Origin: Halobellus clavatus
Lineage (GTDB): Archaea > Halobacteriota > Halobacteria > Halobacteriales > Haloferacaceae
NCBI RefSeq assembly: GCF_900107195.1
Contig: NZ_FNPB01000003.1
Location: 248,001 to 312,000, forward strand
Reading direction: 5' to 3'
DNA length: 64,000 nucleotides
The position numbers and the translations under genes were made by a program. This document shows positions 40,201 to 46,562 of the stretch, piece after piece. The notes under the pieces are model-generated. The model saw nothing but the letters and a program-made list of their open reading frames with translations, ran no database searches and was not told the DNA's origin. Each line of letters opens with the position of its first letter. The first letter of the stretch is position 1.

Positions 40201-41826
40201 TCACTCCGGGCGGAACTCGGACTCGCCGAACGCGTCCAGTCTGGCCTGTGTGCCGTCGTCTGACTCGTTCTGTTCGGTCTCGGTCCCGTGATTCCGAGCG
40301 ATCGACCGCGCTGCGGACCGGCCCCCGGAGAGCGACGCGCGGTCCGCCACCGCCGGCCGGGCGAGGGCGTCGGCGGCCCTGGCGCGGACGTCCTCGAGGC
40401 GCTCGCGGAACTCCTGGCGGGCTGCTTCGTAGTCGACCACCGGCCGCGGATACTCCTCGCCGATCCTGACGCCGCACTCCGCCTGCACGGCGAGGGGTGT
40501 ATGTTCGGGTCGGTCCAGGTACTCGGTTGGCAGCGCAGCCAGTTCGGGTATCCACTCGCGGATGAACTCACCCTCGGGATCCTGATCGCGGACCTGCTTC
40601 CGGGGGTTGTACAGCCGGAGCGTCGGTCGCCCGACGAGGCCGCACTGCGACTGCCACTGCGTGTAGTTGATCGATGCCTCCGCGTCGATCAGGTGGCGAT
40701 AGAACCAGTCGGCCCCGATCCGCCACGGCTGTTGGAGCACGTGGAAATAACAGGACGCACACAGCGCTCGCATCCGAAAGTTGAGCCAGCCGGTCTCGCG
40801 AAGACACCGCATCGAGGCGTCGACCATCGGATAGCCGGTGCGGCCGCGTTTCCACGCCGCGATCAACTCGGGGTCTCGTCGGTCCGCATTGAACCCTCTG
40901 AGCACGGGGTTGACGGCGCGGTCGGTCCACCCGGGCCAGTCGGCCAGTTTCTGCTCGTAGTGTCTGTTCCAGAAGAGTCGGGAGACGAACATTTCCGTGC
41001 CCCGGGCATCCGGTGCGTGTGCATCGACGTACTGGTACACCTGCCGGACGGAGAGGCAGCCGAATTTGAGGTACGGCGAGAGCCCGCTGGTCCCCTCGCG
41101 GGCGTCGACGGGTGAGGAGATGGCGCCCGGGTACTCGTGGATCTGATCCACGAAGGAGCGCAACCGCGCTCGCGCCTGCTGTCCGCCCCCCTGCGGGACC
41201 CGCGACTTCGTCGGGTCGACGTCGTACGCGCGCTCGACGTCCGAGGAATCGAGCCCCGTGGGGAACTCGACCACGCGGACCGAGTCGGGGTCCCAGTCGT
41301 ACTGGTCGGCGGCGAACCACGCCTCGGTTCGGTCCTGCCACTCCCGGCGCGGTCGCTCCGCGTCGCGGACGAGACCGTCGCCGGGGACGAACGTCGCGTC
41401 GAGTTCCCTGTAGGCCCGTTGGTCTCGTTCGTGGCCGTAGCGGCCCGACGGAGACGCTGTGGCGACGAGGTTCCAGCCGGCCGAGCGGAACCGCTCGAGG
41501 AGGTCGATCGGCTCACCGACCGCGTACGAGAGCCCCGCGTTGGTCCGCTCGCGGTATCGTCGATCGAGGTCGTCGAGGCACTCGTGGAGGAAGCGGAGTC
41601 GGGCGTCGCACGCGAGCCCGTCGGACCCGTAGAACGACGGGTCGAAGACGAACAGCGGCAGCAGCCGATCGGCCTCCGCGCCCGCGGCGACGGCCGCCTG
41701 GTCGTCGAGGCGCAAGTCGTCCCGGTGCCAGACGACGGTCCCTGTCGTGTCGGCCGGCAGTGTCGGGACTCCCGTCTCTCGGGTCCGCGAACGCAACGCC
41801 TCCGGAGTGAGTTCGCTGCTCGACAC
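40201..41826 (-). CDS. Cryptochrome/photolyase family protein
   Basis: A 541-residue FAD flavoprotein that repairs UV-induced pyrimidine dimers using light. The N-terminal antenna domain (TGTVVWHRDDLRLDDQAAVAAGAEADRLLPLFVFD) and the C-terminal FAD-binding domain (EGTSGLSPYLKFGCLSVRQVY, WKRGRTGYPMVDASMRCLRETGWLNFRMR) are both complete. The line ASINYTQWQSQCGLV with RLYNPRKQVRDQDPEGEFIREWIPEL replaces the usual NNGGWQW pattern but keeps the first Asn. A halophilic 60-residue acidic tail follows. Start is GTG. It could be a true photolyase or a cryptochrome; the family alone cannot tell. Confidence 0.92.
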   Translation of the reverse strand: MSSSELTPEALRSRTRETGVPTLPADTTGTVVWHRDDLRLDDQAAVAAGAEADRLLPLFVFDPSFYGSDGLACDARLRFLHECLDDLDRRYRERTNAGLSYAVGEPIDLLERFRSAGWNLVATASPSGRYGHERDQRAYRELDATFVPGDGLVRDAERPRREWQDRTEAWFAADQYDWDPDSVRVVEFPTGLDSSDVERAYDVDPTKSRVPQGGGQQARARLRSFVDQIHEYPGAISSPVDAREGTSGLSPYLKFGCLSVRQVYQYVDAHAPDARGTEMFVSRLFWNRHYEQKLADWPGWTDRAVNPVLRGFNADRRDPELIAAWKRGRTGYPMVDASMRCLRETGWLNFRMRALCASCYFHVLQQPWRIGADWFYRHLIDAEASINYTQWQSQCGLVGRPTLRLYNPRKQVRDQDPEGEFIREWIPELAALPTEYLDRPEHTPLAVQAECGVRIGEEYPRPVVDYEAARQEFRERLEDVRARAADALARPAVADRASLSGGRSAARSIARNHGTETEQNESDDGTQARLDAFGESEFRPE

Positions 41827-41922: not shown

Positions 41923-41934
41923 GAAATGGTGGCA

Positions 41935-43107
41935 ATGGATCAGGACGTCTGTGTCGTCGTCCCGACGATTCGCGAGTACGAGTGTATGCGAGCGTACTTC
42001 GAGAACGCGCGGGCCCACGGGTTCGACCTCGATCGACTGTTCGTGCTCCTCGTCACCGAGGACTTCTGCGACGTCGACGCGATGGAACAGCTGCTCGAAG
42101 AGGAGGGCGTCGACGGTGCAGTCTACGACGGATCGCGTCGTGAGGCGTGGTTCGAGACGCACGACGTCGGCGAGTTCGCACACCTCGTCCCCGCCGCATC
42201 TCACGCGCAGACCAGTTTCGGGCTCCTGTATATGTGGGCCCACCCGCGCTTCGAGCGGGGCGTGTTCATCGACGACGACACGCTCCCGCACGAGGAGTGG
42301 GACTTTTTCGGTCGCCACCTGGCGAATCTCGACCGCACCGACGAGGTCGAGTCCGTCAGTTCCGACGAGCGCTGGGTGAACGTCCTCTATCAGCACGCCG
42401 ACGAGCACGGGTTGTATCCGCGGGGCTACCCCTACTCGGCGATGGACGAGACCGTCGAGACCGGGCGGCAGGAACTGACCGACGTGGTGGCCTCCCAGGG
42501 ACTGTGGACGAACGTTCCGGACCTCGATGCGGTCCGGATCCTGATGGACGGCGACCTGCAGGGACAGGCGCAGACCCGGACCGAAAAGGCGGACTTCGAC
42601 GGCGACTTCGTCGCCGAATCCGGGCAGTACCTCACCGTTTGTTCGATGAATCTCGCGTTCGAGCGCGAGGTGATCCCGGCGTTCTACCAACTCCCGATGG
42701 ACGACAACGACTGGGACGTCGGCCGGTTCGACGACATCTGGTCGGGGGTGTTCCTGAAGCGCGCGGCCGACGTACTGGACAAACAGATCGTCAACGGCTA
42801 CCCTCTCTGTGCGCACAACAAGGCCCCGCGGCCGACGTTCGACGACCTCAACAACGAGGTCCCCGGGCTGGAACTCAACGAGCACGTCTGGGAGGTCGTC
42901 GACGACGTCGGGGGCGACGCCGACTCCTGGTGGACCGCTGCCGAAACGATGGCTCGCGCGTTCGCCGAGGGCGACTTCGATGACTGGATCAACGGTGCGT
43001 TCCTGAACCACTGCGGGGCCTACTGGCTCGACTGGCTCGACTGTCTGGATCGACTGGCGGACACGACAGTCCGGCCACAGCAGGATCCGGCCATCGCGGA
43101 CGACTGA
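41935..43107 (+). CDS. GT75-like protein (alpha-1,4-glucan-protein synthase/reversibly glycosylated polypeptide family)
   Basis: A 390-residue cytosolic protein related to reversibly glycosylated polypeptides and UDP-sugar mutases (GT75). The GT-A-like start CVVVPTIREYECMRAYF and the DxD-like DDDTLP in ERGVFIDDDTLPHEEWDFFG mark the nucleotide-sugar site; GYPLCAHNKAPRPTFDDLNNE is another family stretch. In plants the family forms arabinosyl mutases; archaeal members have no proven reaction. The start at 41935 puts the TATA-like box and the 16-bp palindrome just upstream, as in a leaderless promoter; ATG at 41926 adds three residues. Iron-type control is suggested by the operator. Confidence 0.85.
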   Translation: MDQDVCVVVPTIREYECMRAYFENARAHGFDLDRLFVLLVTEDFCDVDAMEQLLEEEGVDGAVYDGSRREAWFETHDVGEFAHLVPAASHAQTSFGLLYMWAHPRFERGVFIDDDTLPHEEWDFFGRHLANLDRTDEVESVSSDERWVNVLYQHADEHGLYPRGYPYSAMDETVETGRQELTDVVASQGLWTNVPDLDAVRILMDGDLQGQAQTRTEKADFDGDFVAESGQYLTVCSMNLAFEREVIPAFYQLPMDDNDWDVGRFDDIWSGVFLKRAADVLDKQIVNGYPLCAHNKAPRPTFDDLNNEVPGLELNEHVWEVVDDVGGDADSWWTAAETMARAFAEGDFDDWINGAFLNHCGAYWLDWLDCLDRLADTTVRPQQDPAIADD

Positions 43108-43299: not shown

Positions 43300-44775
43300 A
43301 TGGACTCGTCATTCAATCAACTCTCCAGTGGGATTCCCGGCCTCGATTCGCTTCTCGAGGGAGGATTCGTCCGGGGGCGACTCTATCTGGTTCTCGGCGA
43401 ACCCGGAACCGGGAAGACGCTCCTCGGGACCGAGTTCCTCAGTGAGGGGCTCGCCGACGACGAGACGGTCCTGTTCATCCACGGCGAGGAGTCCGTCGGG
43501 GACCTCCGCGCCAACGCGGCCGAACTCGGGATCGACATCGAGGGAGCCGAGTTCCTCGACATCGGCCCCGAATCGGACTTCTTTACGTCCGCGCAGTCGT
43601 ACGACGTCGTCGATCCGGCCGATCTCGAAGACCGGAACCTGATCTCGGACATCCGGGAATCGATCGAGACTCTCGATCCGTCCCGCGTGTTGATCGATCC
43701 GATCACGCAGTTCCAGTATCTCGAACCGACGGAGTACCAGTTCCGCAGGCGCATCATCTCGTTCGCGCGGTTTCTGAAGAACCGTGGGACGACTGTCCTC
43801 GCGACCAAGACCCCGCGGCAACAGATGGACACGCAGTTGCGATCGCTCAGCGACGGGGTCATCGCGCTCGAATACGAGGACGAAAAGGCGGGCCGGCGCA
43901 TCAGCGTGCCCAAGCACCGCGGGGTCGGCCAGCGCGACGGGAAACACGGACTGGAGATCCGCGGAGACAGCCTGCGGATCTATCCCTCACTCCGGCCGGA
44001 GAACCACGCACGGCGGTTCGAACCGGATCAGTTCGAGTCCGGGAGCAGCGCGTTCGATTCGCTCCTCGGCGGCGGTCTCGAGCGGGGGACGGTGACCATC
44101 GTCAGCGGGCCGACCGGCGTGGGGAAGACGACGGCCGCGACCGCGTTCCTGTCGACCGCCGCGGCGAACGGCCAGACGGCCATCGCGTGCCTCTTCGAGG
44201 AATCGCTGGAGATGTTCACCCAGCGGTCTGAGACCTTCGGGTACCCGATCACCGACCAGCGCGAGTCGGGGTCGCTCTACGTCGATGCGGTCGATTCACT
44301 CTCGAACTCCCCCGAGGAGTTCGCGCACCGCGTCCGGACGCACGTCGAAGAGAACGACGCCGAGATGGTCGTGATCGATGGGATCGCCGGGTACAACACG
44401 GCGATCAAGGGCGACGAGAACGGCGTCGGCCTGCGACGGCGGCTGCAGGCCCTGACGCAGTACCTGACGAATATGAACGTCTCCGTGATCCTGATCGATC
44501 AACGGAACGACGTGATGGGCCTTCCGCAAGCGACCAGCGAGAACGTGAGTTACATCGCGGACAACATCATCTTCCAGAACTACATCGAACTCGAGGGGGA
44601 CCTCCAGCGGATCGTCGGCGTGCTCAAGAAACGCCTCGGTGGATTCGAGACAGTTCCGCGCCGGTATCGGATCACCGGTGACGGCCTGGAGGTCGGCGAG
44701 CCAGTGACCGGCATTCACGGGGTCTTCGAGGGGATACCGCAACGAACGGATGGGGCGACGCGCTCCTCGGAGTGA
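43300..44775 (+). CDS. Double-KaiC-domain ATPase
   Basis: A 491-residue RecA-superfamily protein with two KaiC domains. Domain 1 (about 10-235) has Walker A GEPGTGKT at 33-40 and the catalytic Glu pair at 63-64 (HGEESVGDL). Domain 2 (about 248-475) has GPTGVGKT at 270-277 and a second Glu pair at 300-301 (LFEESLEMF). Both domains therefore look ATP-active. KaiC-like proteins in archaea are linked to signalling and archaellum control (the FlaH family) and, unlike cyanobacterial KaiC, rarely to a clock. Its stop codon is 14 bases before the PAS histidine kinase start, which has its own Shine-Dalgarno site, so the pair is an operon. Confidence 0.9.
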   Translation: MDSSFNQLSSGIPGLDSLLEGGFVRGRLYLVLGEPGTGKTLLGTEFLSEGLADDETVLFIHGEESVGDLRANAAELGIDIEGAEFLDIGPESDFFTSAQSYDVVDPADLEDRNLISDIRESIETLDPSRVLIDPITQFQYLEPTEYQFRRRIISFARFLKNRGTTVLATKTPRQQMDTQLRSLSDGVIALEYEDEKAGRRISVPKHRGVGQRDGKHGLEIRGDSLRIYPSLRPENHARRFEPDQFESGSSAFDSLLGGGLERGTVTIVSGPTGVGKTTAATAFLSTAAANGQTAIACLFEESLEMFTQRSETFGYPITDQRESGSLYVDAVDSLSNSPEEFAHRVRTHVEENDAEMVVIDGIAGYNTAIKGDENGVGLRRRLQALTQYLTNMNVSVILIDQRNDVMGLPQATSENVSYIADNIIFQNYIELEGDLQRIVGVLKKRLGGFETVPRRYRITGDGLEVGEPVTGIHGVFEGIPQRTDGATRSSE

Positions 44776-44779
44776 GATC

Positions 44780-44784
44780 GGAGG
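44780..44784 (+). promoter_or_regulatory. Ribosome-binding site of the KaiC-linked histidine kinase
   Basis: GGAGG, five bases before the ATG at 44790; it supports this start over the in-frame GTG at 44772 and shows internal translation of the KaiC-kinase mRNA. Confidence 0.6.
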
Positions 44785-44789
44785 CACCG

Positions 44790-46562
44790 ATGGCCAGAAT
44801 CCAACTGCTCCTCGCCGACGAGGGAAACCGTCGCGCGATGGCGTCGTTGCTCTCGGAGCTCCACTCGCCGGTCGTCGAAGAGACGCTCGAATCCGTCGAC
44901 CTCTCTCTCGTCGGCGAGGAGTCGTTCCCCCGATACCGCGAGGCGATCATAGAATACAAGCGAGCGCAGGATCCGGTGTACTGTCCAGTGGTCCTGGTCC
45001 GTCGGGAAGCGTCTCCGGTCTCGGTCACGCTGTCGGATATCCAGACGAGTGAGCCGCCGCTCGCGGTGAACGACGTCGTGTCGGCCCCGGTCGAGAAACA
45101 GGCGCTGTTCCGCACCATCTCGAATCACCTCGTCCGCCGTGAACAGACCGAAGAACTGACCGCGGACCTCAGAGAGCGGAACGACCGGCTCAGAGAGGAG
45201 CACACGAAGTACCGGACGCTGGTCGAACGGAGCCAGAACGGCATCGCAGTCGTACAAAACGGGGCGTTCGCGTTCGTCAACGGGCGGATGGAGGAGATCA
45301 CCGGCCGTGACAGTGACGCCCTCAGGGAGATGCCCCCACTCGAACTGTTCACCTCCGAGCAACGGGCGTTCATCAGCGATCAGTACGGCCGATTGATCGC
45401 CGGTGAAATCGCCCAGACTCGGGCGGAAGTGCCGATCCGGACACCGGAGGGTCGAAAGCAGATCGATCTTCGGGCGTCTCGGATCAGTTACGACGGTGCG
45501 CCTGCCGTGCTGGCGCTGTTTCAGGACATCAGCCGGCGGAAAGAGCGCGAGCAGGATCTGCGACGGTTCAAGAACGCTGTCGAACACGCCGGGCACGCGA
45601 TCCTCATCACCGACGACGAGGGCACGATCCAGTATGTGAACCCGGCCTTCGAGGAGATGACGGGATATACCGCGGCCGAGGCCATCGGCGAAGACCCCAG
45701 TATTCTCAAATCCGGTGCGCACGGCGACGCGTTCTACACGGAACTCTGGGAGACGATCCTCAGCGGCGAGGTGTGGAACAGCGAGACGGTGAACGAGCGT
45801 AAATCCGGCGAGCGACTCGTGTTGAATCAGACCATCGCGCCGATCAAAGCCGAGGACGGCGTCGTCCAGGGGTTCGTCGCTATCCAGGACGATATCACCG
45901 ATCACCGACTGCGCCAACAGCAGCTCGCGGTCTTCGATCGGGTGCTCCGTCACAACCTCCGCAACAAGGGGGCCGCGATCCAGGGATACGCCGACGTGCT
46001 CCAGCGGACGCTGGACGAGGACCGGGTCCTCGATCACCTCGGGGCGATTCAGGATAACGTCGGGTCGCTGCTCGAGATGGGCGAGAAAGCGCGGCACGCT
46101 CGGCAGGCGTTCAACAGGACGCTGGAGGAGGACTCGAATCGGGAACTCACAGAAATCCTGGAGCGACTCGGAGACGGCATTGCGTCCTCGTATCCGGACA
46201 CCGAGGTGGTCGTCGACGGTGGCCCGTCACCTTCGCCCGCTGTGGACACGCGGGTGGTGCCGGCGCTTCGTGAACTCATCGAGAACGCGGCCAAGCACTG
46301 CGACGCACCGTCGCCGCAGGTGTTCATCTCGGCGAGGCTCGACGGCACGACGGCGACCGTCACCGTCGTGGACAACGGGTCCGGCCTCCCGAGCGAGGAA
46401 CAACGGGTCATCGAGGCCGGAACCGAGGATCCACTCGAACACGGGTCGGGACTCGGACTGTGGTTCGCCTACTGGCTCATCACGTACGTCGGCGGGACGA
46501 TCGACATCACCGCCGACCACGACGGCACCGAGATCCGTGTGACCGTACCGACACGGGAGTAG
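44790..46562 (+). CDS. PAS histidine kinase with degenerate receiver domain, partner of KaiC-like protein
   Basis: A 590-residue soluble kinase. Residues 1 to about 120 are receiver-like (ARIQLLLADEGNRRAMASLLSEL, ending SAPVEKQALFRTISNHL) but lack an obvious phospho-acceptor Asp at the end of the third strand, so this is a pseudo-receiver. A short coiled segment leads to two PAS domains (about 140-255 and 262-380; the second has ILITDDEGTIQYVNPAFEEMTGYT). The histidine box is FDRVLRHNLRNKGAAIQGYADVL, followed by an HATPase with ALRELIENAAKHCD and GSGLGLWFAYWLITYVGG. It is the second gene of the KaiC operon. The kinase may report on or be controlled by the ATPase; that is inference. Confidence 0.91.
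   Translation: MARIQLLLADEGNRRAMASLLSELHSPVVEETLESVDLSLVGEESFPRYREAIIEYKRAQDPVYCPVVLVRREASPVSVTLSDIQTSEPPLAVNDVVSAPVEKQALFRTISNHLVRREQTEELTADLRERNDRLREEHTKYRTLVERSQNGIAVVQNGAFAFVNGRMEEITGRDSDALREMPPLELFTSEQRAFISDQYGRLIAGEIAQTRAEVPIRTPEGRKQIDLRASRISYDGAPAVLALFQDISRRKEREQDLRRFKNAVEHAGHAILITDDEGTIQYVNPAFEEMTGYTAAEAIGEDPSILKSGAHGDAFYTELWETILSGEVWNSETVNERKSGERLVLNQTIAPIKAEDGVVQGFVAIQDDITDHRLRQQQLAVFDRVLRHNLRNKGAAIQGYADVLQRTLDEDRVLDHLGAIQDNVGSLLEMGEKARHARQAFNRTLEEDSNRELTEILERLGDGIASSYPDTEVVVDGGPSPSPAVDTRVVPALRELIENAAKHCDAPSPQVFISARLDGTTATVTVVDNGSGLPSEEQRVIEAGTEDPLEHGSGLGLWFAYWLITYVGGTIDITADHDGTEIRVTVPTRE

Follow-up and report, generated by a model that had tools for sequence, protein, structure and literature searches.

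In the cyanobacterial clock, the ATPase KaiC is accompanied by kinases of two types, namely SasA, a histidine kinase that makes direct contact with KaiC through its N-terminal domain, and CikA, in which a pseudo-receiver, placed C-terminal to the kinase core, joins the Kai complex. For archaea, Makarova, Galperin and Koonin reportedly proposed in 2017 that KaiC-like ATPases are signalling hubs linking input and output domains. The N-terminus of SasA has a KaiB-like thioredoxin fold (PMC6378743), and the CikA pseudo-receiver binds KaiB (PMC12632262, PMC6378743). In Haloferax volcanii, cirC, the sole double-Walker KaiC gene of the species, was described in 2014 as 'adjacent to fixL' (PMC3941300); the available text of that report mentions neither a receiver-like domain nor conservation of the pair. 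Archaeal proteins of the types REC-PAS-histidine kinase and REC-PAS-GAF-BAT-HTH_10 are also on record, the divergent N-terminal REC of the Bat proteins being of obscure role, and no link of either type to a neighbouring KaiC is drawn in the available text of the source (PMC5847659). Here we describe a locus of the haloarchaeon Halobellus clavatus (genome of 3.75 Mb), contained in a stretch of 64,000 nucleotides (contig NZ_FNPB01000003.1, positions 248,001 to 312,000; hereafter, the window), in which the gene of a double-domain KaiC is followed by that of a histidine kinase beginning with a pseudo-receiver (PsR). The KaiC-PsR pair is a conserved unit, and the constant partner of KaiC is the PsR, while the part attached to it varies (PAS/LOV kinases, bare kinases and Bat-type regulators). 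The features on which this comparison depends are the following:

43300..44775, + strand: double-domain KaiC ATPase, 491 aa (open reading frame and translation; PF06745, E 5e-67; phmmer match to the solved KaiC 8zn5, E 5e-51)
44790..46562, + strand: histidine kinase PsR-PAS-PAS-DHp-HATPase, 590 aa (open reading frame and translation; Pfam)
44790..45161, + strand: PsR, residues 1-124 of the kinase (receiver profile match, AlphaFold model, fold match; kept beside KaiC)
45096..45197, + strand: long helix, residues 103-136, the last helix of the receiver fold, extending toward the first PAS domain (predicted in the model)

The first-pass annotation of this DNA had likened the layout to that of KaiC with SasA/CikA-type kinases but without KaiA and KaiB, and as a likeness this was borne out, neither KaiA nor KaiB (PF07688, PF07689) giving a match in the whole genome, the window included (as controls, the KaiA search gave a match in S. 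elongatus only, and the KaiB search in 6 of 14 genomes, S. elongatus among them). Like SasA, the window protein is a histidine kinase with an N-terminal domain that would meet KaiC directly; this domain, however, has a receiver fold, and a SasA-like thioredoxin N-terminus was ruled out, as profile and fold matches give receivers over the whole length. With CikA the window protein shares a pseudo-receiver, but its genome has no KaiB, and the PsR occupies the first 124 residues with the kinase core C-terminal to it, the reverse of the order in CikA. The archaeal pair can thus act like SasA or CikA, yet it is neither. The same adjacency is seen for H. volcanii CirC and its fixL-like neighbour, which are likened to the window pair by their description only; it was in print in 2014 (PMC3941300), so that the earlier idea of a novel module was not supported in full. 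The REC-PAS-histidine kinase and REC-PAS-GAF-BAT-HTH_10 architectures, for their part, are the same as those of PsR partners.

Whether the kinase N-terminus is a receiver fold had been set beforehand as a point on which the first interpretation could fail, and a sequence profile, an AlphaFold model and a fold search agree that it is. The profile (A1), built from 57 proteins picked for following a KaiC, with L101 and L111 removed as identical or near-identical rows, matched receiver domains in the PDB, PleD being the best (E 9e-15). The AlphaFold model of the window N-terminus has a receiver fold (mean pLDDT 82), and the fold search with this model returned receivers throughout, again with PleD as the best match (Z 14.6, 123 residues at 2.3 A) and with no KaiA or CikA pseudo-receiver in the list of matches. 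The model lacks the helices linking strand 2 to strand 3 and strand 4 to strand 5. Pfam identified no PF00072 in the window kinase, and residues 1-137 submitted alone gave nothing but scattered weak names.

The active site that defines receivers (PF00072), consisting of the Asp, the acid pair, the Thr/Ser and the Lys, is not preserved in the window PsR, in which Gly42 stands at the place of the phospho-Asp and Ala99-Pro100 at the KP motif. Across the 57 PsRs, the phospho-Asp place is occupied by Asp in 43, Gly in 10 (the window and nine further rows), Glu in three and Ser in one; none of the 57 has the Lys of the KP motif, and most have lost the acid pair and the Thr/Ser. The earlier claim that the domain lacks a phospho-acceptor is therefore right for the window, but an Asp is retained at this place in the 43 relatives, and the Lys in none. 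Because the receiver fold is retained and the phosphotransfer residues are lost, the N-terminal domain of the window kinase is a pseudo-receiver, a term that denotes precisely this combination in the available text of a 2025 review (PMC12632262).

Conservation of the gene pair across haloarchaea, the second point on which the interpretation could fail, was examined at 82 loci, namely the window, a Halovenus locus (L011) and 80 further double-KaiC loci, the latter being the best matches of the list (at least one full-length match, G059:C28, was omitted) plus the C27 copy of the window's own genome. In alignment A2, L111 was removed, and L009 and L010 were removed because they duplicate L093 and L094. 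A same-strand gene starting -60 to +170 bp from the end of KaiC was present at 59 of the 82 loci, and all 59 such genes carry a PsR, 41 of which a phmmer search with a single sequence was enough to find; the gaps between KaiC and PsR genes are often -8 to +20 bp. At 22 of the other 23 loci a PsR gene is also present, mostly divergent and just upstream, which brings the total to 81 of 82, the sole exception being L117, a further KaiC encoded in the genome of the window. In the genome counts, neighbours were defined as genes within 4 kb, nearly all of them within 430 bp. For 60 genomes, with the broken KaiC fragments of G054 merged into one gene each and single-domain KaiC matches excluded, a PsR lies beside 50 of 51 double KaiCs (42 downstream, eight divergent), and 54 of 63 PsR matches adjoin a double KaiC. 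The 81/82 and 50/51 counts are partly so by construction, since these sets overlap the training set of profile A1. An independent test was provided by 95 genomes outside profile building, 91 of them from outside the window's family and four from inside it: a PsR adjoins 58 of 64 double KaiCs (53 downstream, five divergent), and 66 of 77 PsR matches stand beside a KaiC. Both genes are present in 55 of these genomes, KaiC only in one, PsR only in four and neither in 35; Fisher's test of this co-presence yields p 2e-20, a value that overstates the evidence because the genomes are related.

The two partners have also diverged together. Distances between KaiCs and between PsRs are correlated over 57 pairs (Mantel r 0.87, reached in none of 2000 permutations), and the choice of paralog is concordant between KaiC and PsR in 231 of 246 comparisons. 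KaiC distances follow those of the PsR more closely (Spearman 0.56) than those of the kinase core of the same protein (0.35; 46 pairs), with a bootstrap interval of 0.07-0.33 for the difference. The PsR profile was further used to scan 294 genomes of the phylum from outside the class, and one family (f14), which we take to be probably the Archaeoglobaceae, gave single matches up to E 4e-22. In five of its eight genomes with a PsR match, a KaiC-family gene lies directly upstream on the same strand, encoding a double KaiC in G265 and a single KaiC domain in G270, G294, G454 and G431; in G314, of the same family, a KaiC piece of just 53 residues remains. The many profile matches of family f12, at E about 1e-8 to 1e-11, were taken for ordinary receivers.

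The proteins built on this constant domain are diverse. Among 58 partner proteins, 48 contain HATPase_c and eight contain BAT and the DNA-binding HTH_10, leaving two with neither if none has both, and 22 of 59 partners carry the LOV signature GxNCR[FL]LQ. Five are bare kinases, with no PAS or other sensor between PsR and kinase, in which the H-box His follows the invariant PsR Arg by 21-22 residues. In the model of one of them (L104; 335 aa, pLDDT 81, pTM 0.56), a single helix, 98-152, starts as the last PsR helix and includes His133. At L104, L119 and L130, two PsR genes apparently stand in tandem behind one KaiC, a short one followed by a long PAS kinase. The first-pass annotation had taken KaiC and a PAS kinase for the module; the pair is indeed conserved, but it is the PsR, not the PAS kinase per se, that is kept as the partner. 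It had also stated that no output regulator is nearby, which is correct in that the window has no PF00072 receiver (the nearest on the same contig lies ~130 kb off, for which reason the target is likely a response regulator elsewhere in the genome), and needs qualifying in that Bat-type HTH_10 partners occur in relatives: since the PsR of these carries HTH_10, the output regulator can be the KaiC partner itself.

From the fold, the lost active site, the adjacency, the co-occurrence, the co-divergence and the continuity of the helix in the model of the bare relative, we read KaiC and its neighbour as a two-protein signalling unit, and consider it fairly probable that KaiC docks on the PsR and that its ATP or phosphorylation state gates the attached output; the binding, the direction of the signal and its final target are what we infer. 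The double KaiC would serve as an ATP-driven hub binding the neighbour's N-terminal PsR and setting the position of this domain according to its own nucleotide or phosphorylation state. The last PsR helix would relay this change through the PAS domains to the kinase in the window protein, straight to the kinase in the bare relatives and to the DNA-binding domain in the Bat-type partners, and the kinase would then phosphorylate a response regulator encoded elsewhere. A KaiC-REC fusion described for Methanosarcinaceae in the available part of a published paper (PMC5847659) is counted in favour of docking.

Several observations weigh against gating of the output by docked KaiC. The support consists of sequence comparisons and single-protein models, from which we infer the KaiC-PsR interaction; the haloarchaeal genomes share ancestry, so that the counts are not independent events, and four of the 95 test genomes belong to the window's own family; and, judging by the kept Asp, a phosphorylated form may exist for 43 of the 57 PsRs. 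PsR matches away from any KaiC number nine of 63 in the set of 60 genomes and 11 of 77 in that of 95, although some of them are weak and may be ordinary receivers. Moreover, the window's own genome has a double KaiC without a PsR neighbour (C20:70134, L117) and a PsR-LOV kinase that has lost its KaiC (C22:395055). The pair is thus not strictly obligatory in cis, and some PsR kinases persist without an adjoining KaiC. The unpaired KaiC (L117:4486-5985; C20:70134-71570) is adjoined by a YcaO-family gene, with a gene near it that, judged from its sequence, is AsnC-type regulator-like. The orphan (L174:1477-3297; C22:395055-395465 and on) is a PsR-PAS-LOV histidine kinase with the motif GRNCRLLQ; its neighbour shares its N-terminus with the gene preceding KaiC in L150, L159, L167 and L168, where KaiC stands in between, and at the orphan locus, with the flanking genes 342 bp apart, no KaiC remnant was found. 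The same genome contains, on C27, a second KaiC-PsR pair (L172:4489-10428), the partner kinase of which has the LOV motif GKNCRFLQ; 601 bp further on lies the gene of a protein whose receiver looks intact.

Among nine orphan PsR loci from the class to which the window belongs, three have decayed KaiC pieces just upstream (L185, L186 and L193) and six have none. Because of these pieces, KaiC-PsR pairing appears ancestral at several orphan loci. KaiC pieces that are decayed or carry internal deletions lie immediately upstream of orphan PsRs at L185:4434-4808, L186:2958-4004, L193:4444-5310 and L180:5338-5499, and these loci look like pairs caught in the course of KaiC loss.

The signal might also run in reverse, the PAS/LOV kinase sensing light or redox and altering KaiC through the PsR, with KaiC as the real output. 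We regard this as rather unlikely, even though partners often have sensors of their own (the LOV motif in 22 of 59 and PAS in most others) and cyanobacterial CikA serves input as well as output, as stated in the available text of PMC6378743: the bare PsR kinases, devoid of a sensor, keep their catalytic parts, and in eight of 58 partners the last domain is a DNA-binding one, which makes a natural output. Both directions could nevertheless operate. That the genes adjoin for the sake of expression only, KaiC having other targets and the PsR being a plain dimerisation domain of the kinase, is still less probable. Receivers often dimerise, and the orphan PsR kinase of the window's own genome persists without KaiC; on the other hand, co-occurrence across genomes is near-complete, the PsR gene may be divergent, and hence outside the operon, yet still a neighbour, the divergence of KaiC parallels that of the PsR more closely than that of the kinase core, and decayed KaiC pieces precede several orphan PsRs.

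Finally, Ser417-Tyr418 of the window KaiC aligns with the Ser-Thr phosphorylation pair S431/T432 of cyanobacterial KaiC, so that, of the pair in CII that belongs to a KaiABC clock, the Ser is kept and the Thr is replaced by Tyr. A true archaeal circadian timer, in which an oscillating phosphorylation of KaiC is read by the PsR kinase or regulator, is very improbable, because KaiA and KaiB are absent and 80 of 82 double KaiCs have Tyr at the T432 place, notwithstanding the Ser at the S431 place and the Thr or Ser at the T426 place in all 82, the LOV motif of 22 of 59 partners and the light-dependent expression of H. volcanii cir genes recorded in the available text of PMC3941300. Judged from the sequences, this analysis offers no evidence of a circadian clock.

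Docking of KaiC on the PsR, the reading that we prefer, leads to a broader and more tentative one: the PsR may be a dedicated KaiC-reading adaptor of archaea (Halobacteria and probably Archaeoglobi), connecting one hub to interchangeable outputs, with an origin separate from that of SasA and from the KaiB-dependent use of CikA. If so, it would supply archaeal KaiC with the output pathway that has been reported as missing, and the interchangeable outputs would be light-sensing LOV kinases, bare kinases and Bat-type transcription factors. No description of the PsR as the constant partner of KaiC was found in the literature searched, which did not extend to Makarova et al. 2017. The 2025 review, as far as its available text goes, knows of no study of archaeal pseudo-receiver function (PMC12632262), and deletions of KaiC-family genes in Haloferax are described, in the available part of a further report, as having motility and cell-shape phenotypes (PMC13286277). 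A conserved KaiC-PsR pair with swappable outputs makes both archaeal KaiC output and pseudo-receiver function testable in Haloferax, and suggests how haloarchaea may achieve a KaiC readout independent of the partners used in the cyanobacterial clock.

The remaining features of the two genes are listed below:

43324..43989 (C20:291324-291989), + strand: KaiC domain 1, CI-like (PF06745; Walker A 43396-43419, Glu pair 43486-43491)
44041..44703 (C20:292041-292703), + strand: KaiC domain 2, CII-like (PF06745; Walker A 44107-44130, Glu pair 44197-44202)
44548..44553, + strand: Ser417-Tyr418, place of the CII phosphorylation pair (alignment to 8zn5/8zn6)
44780..44784, + strand: GGAGG ribosome-binding site of the kinase gene (sequence)
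about 45190-45555, + strand: first PAS domain (Pfam PAS, in two stretches)
45564..45908, + strand: second PAS domain, residues 259-373 (Pfam PAS; GEDPSILK where the LOV Cys motif would be)
45951..45953, + strand: His388 in the H-box RHNLRN, predicted phosphorylated His (motif; His invariant in the 15-row alignment A3)
46248..46556, + strand: HATPase_c with N, G1 and G2 boxes (PF02518, E 1e-13; motif positions)

The window KaiC belongs to the KaiC family by its PF06745 matches, Walker A motifs and catalytic Glu residues. Both domains retain Walker A and the Glu pairs (E63/E64 and E300/E301), as had been noted on first inspection, and the Walker A residues Lys39 and Lys276 are invariant in the 82 aligned double KaiCs, as is the Ser at the place of Ser417. 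By analogy with solved relatives, the protein is probably a hexameric ring. Its stop codon (44773-44775) is separated by 14 bp from the ATG of the kinase gene at 44790, so that the reported spacing and the separate GGAGG site were both confirmed; the longer start proposed by the open reading frame finder, a GTG at 44772, is less likely because the partner genes of Halobellus relatives begin 8 and 15 bp past KaiC. The kinase has the H-box His, the N, G1 and G2 boxes and HATPase_c of a histidine kinase and is a putative autokinase; HisKA was below the Pfam cut-off (E 0.58). Its two PAS domains, already recognized earlier, were recovered by Pfam, and, the LOV Cys motif being absent, the window kinase was rejected as a LOV light sensor.

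Conservation of the neighbourhood does not extend beyond the pair. A DNA photolyase gene (window 40201-41826) lies on the opposite strand ~1.5 kb before KaiC, without a conserved neighbourhood being found for it. Closer to KaiC, an upstream gene of the archaeal reversibly glycosylated polypeptide family (PF03214; window 41926-43107) and a downstream ABC transporter are syntenic, among the loci compared, only in Halobellus rarus; the downstream ABC ATPase also has one distant match (40%) at another locus.

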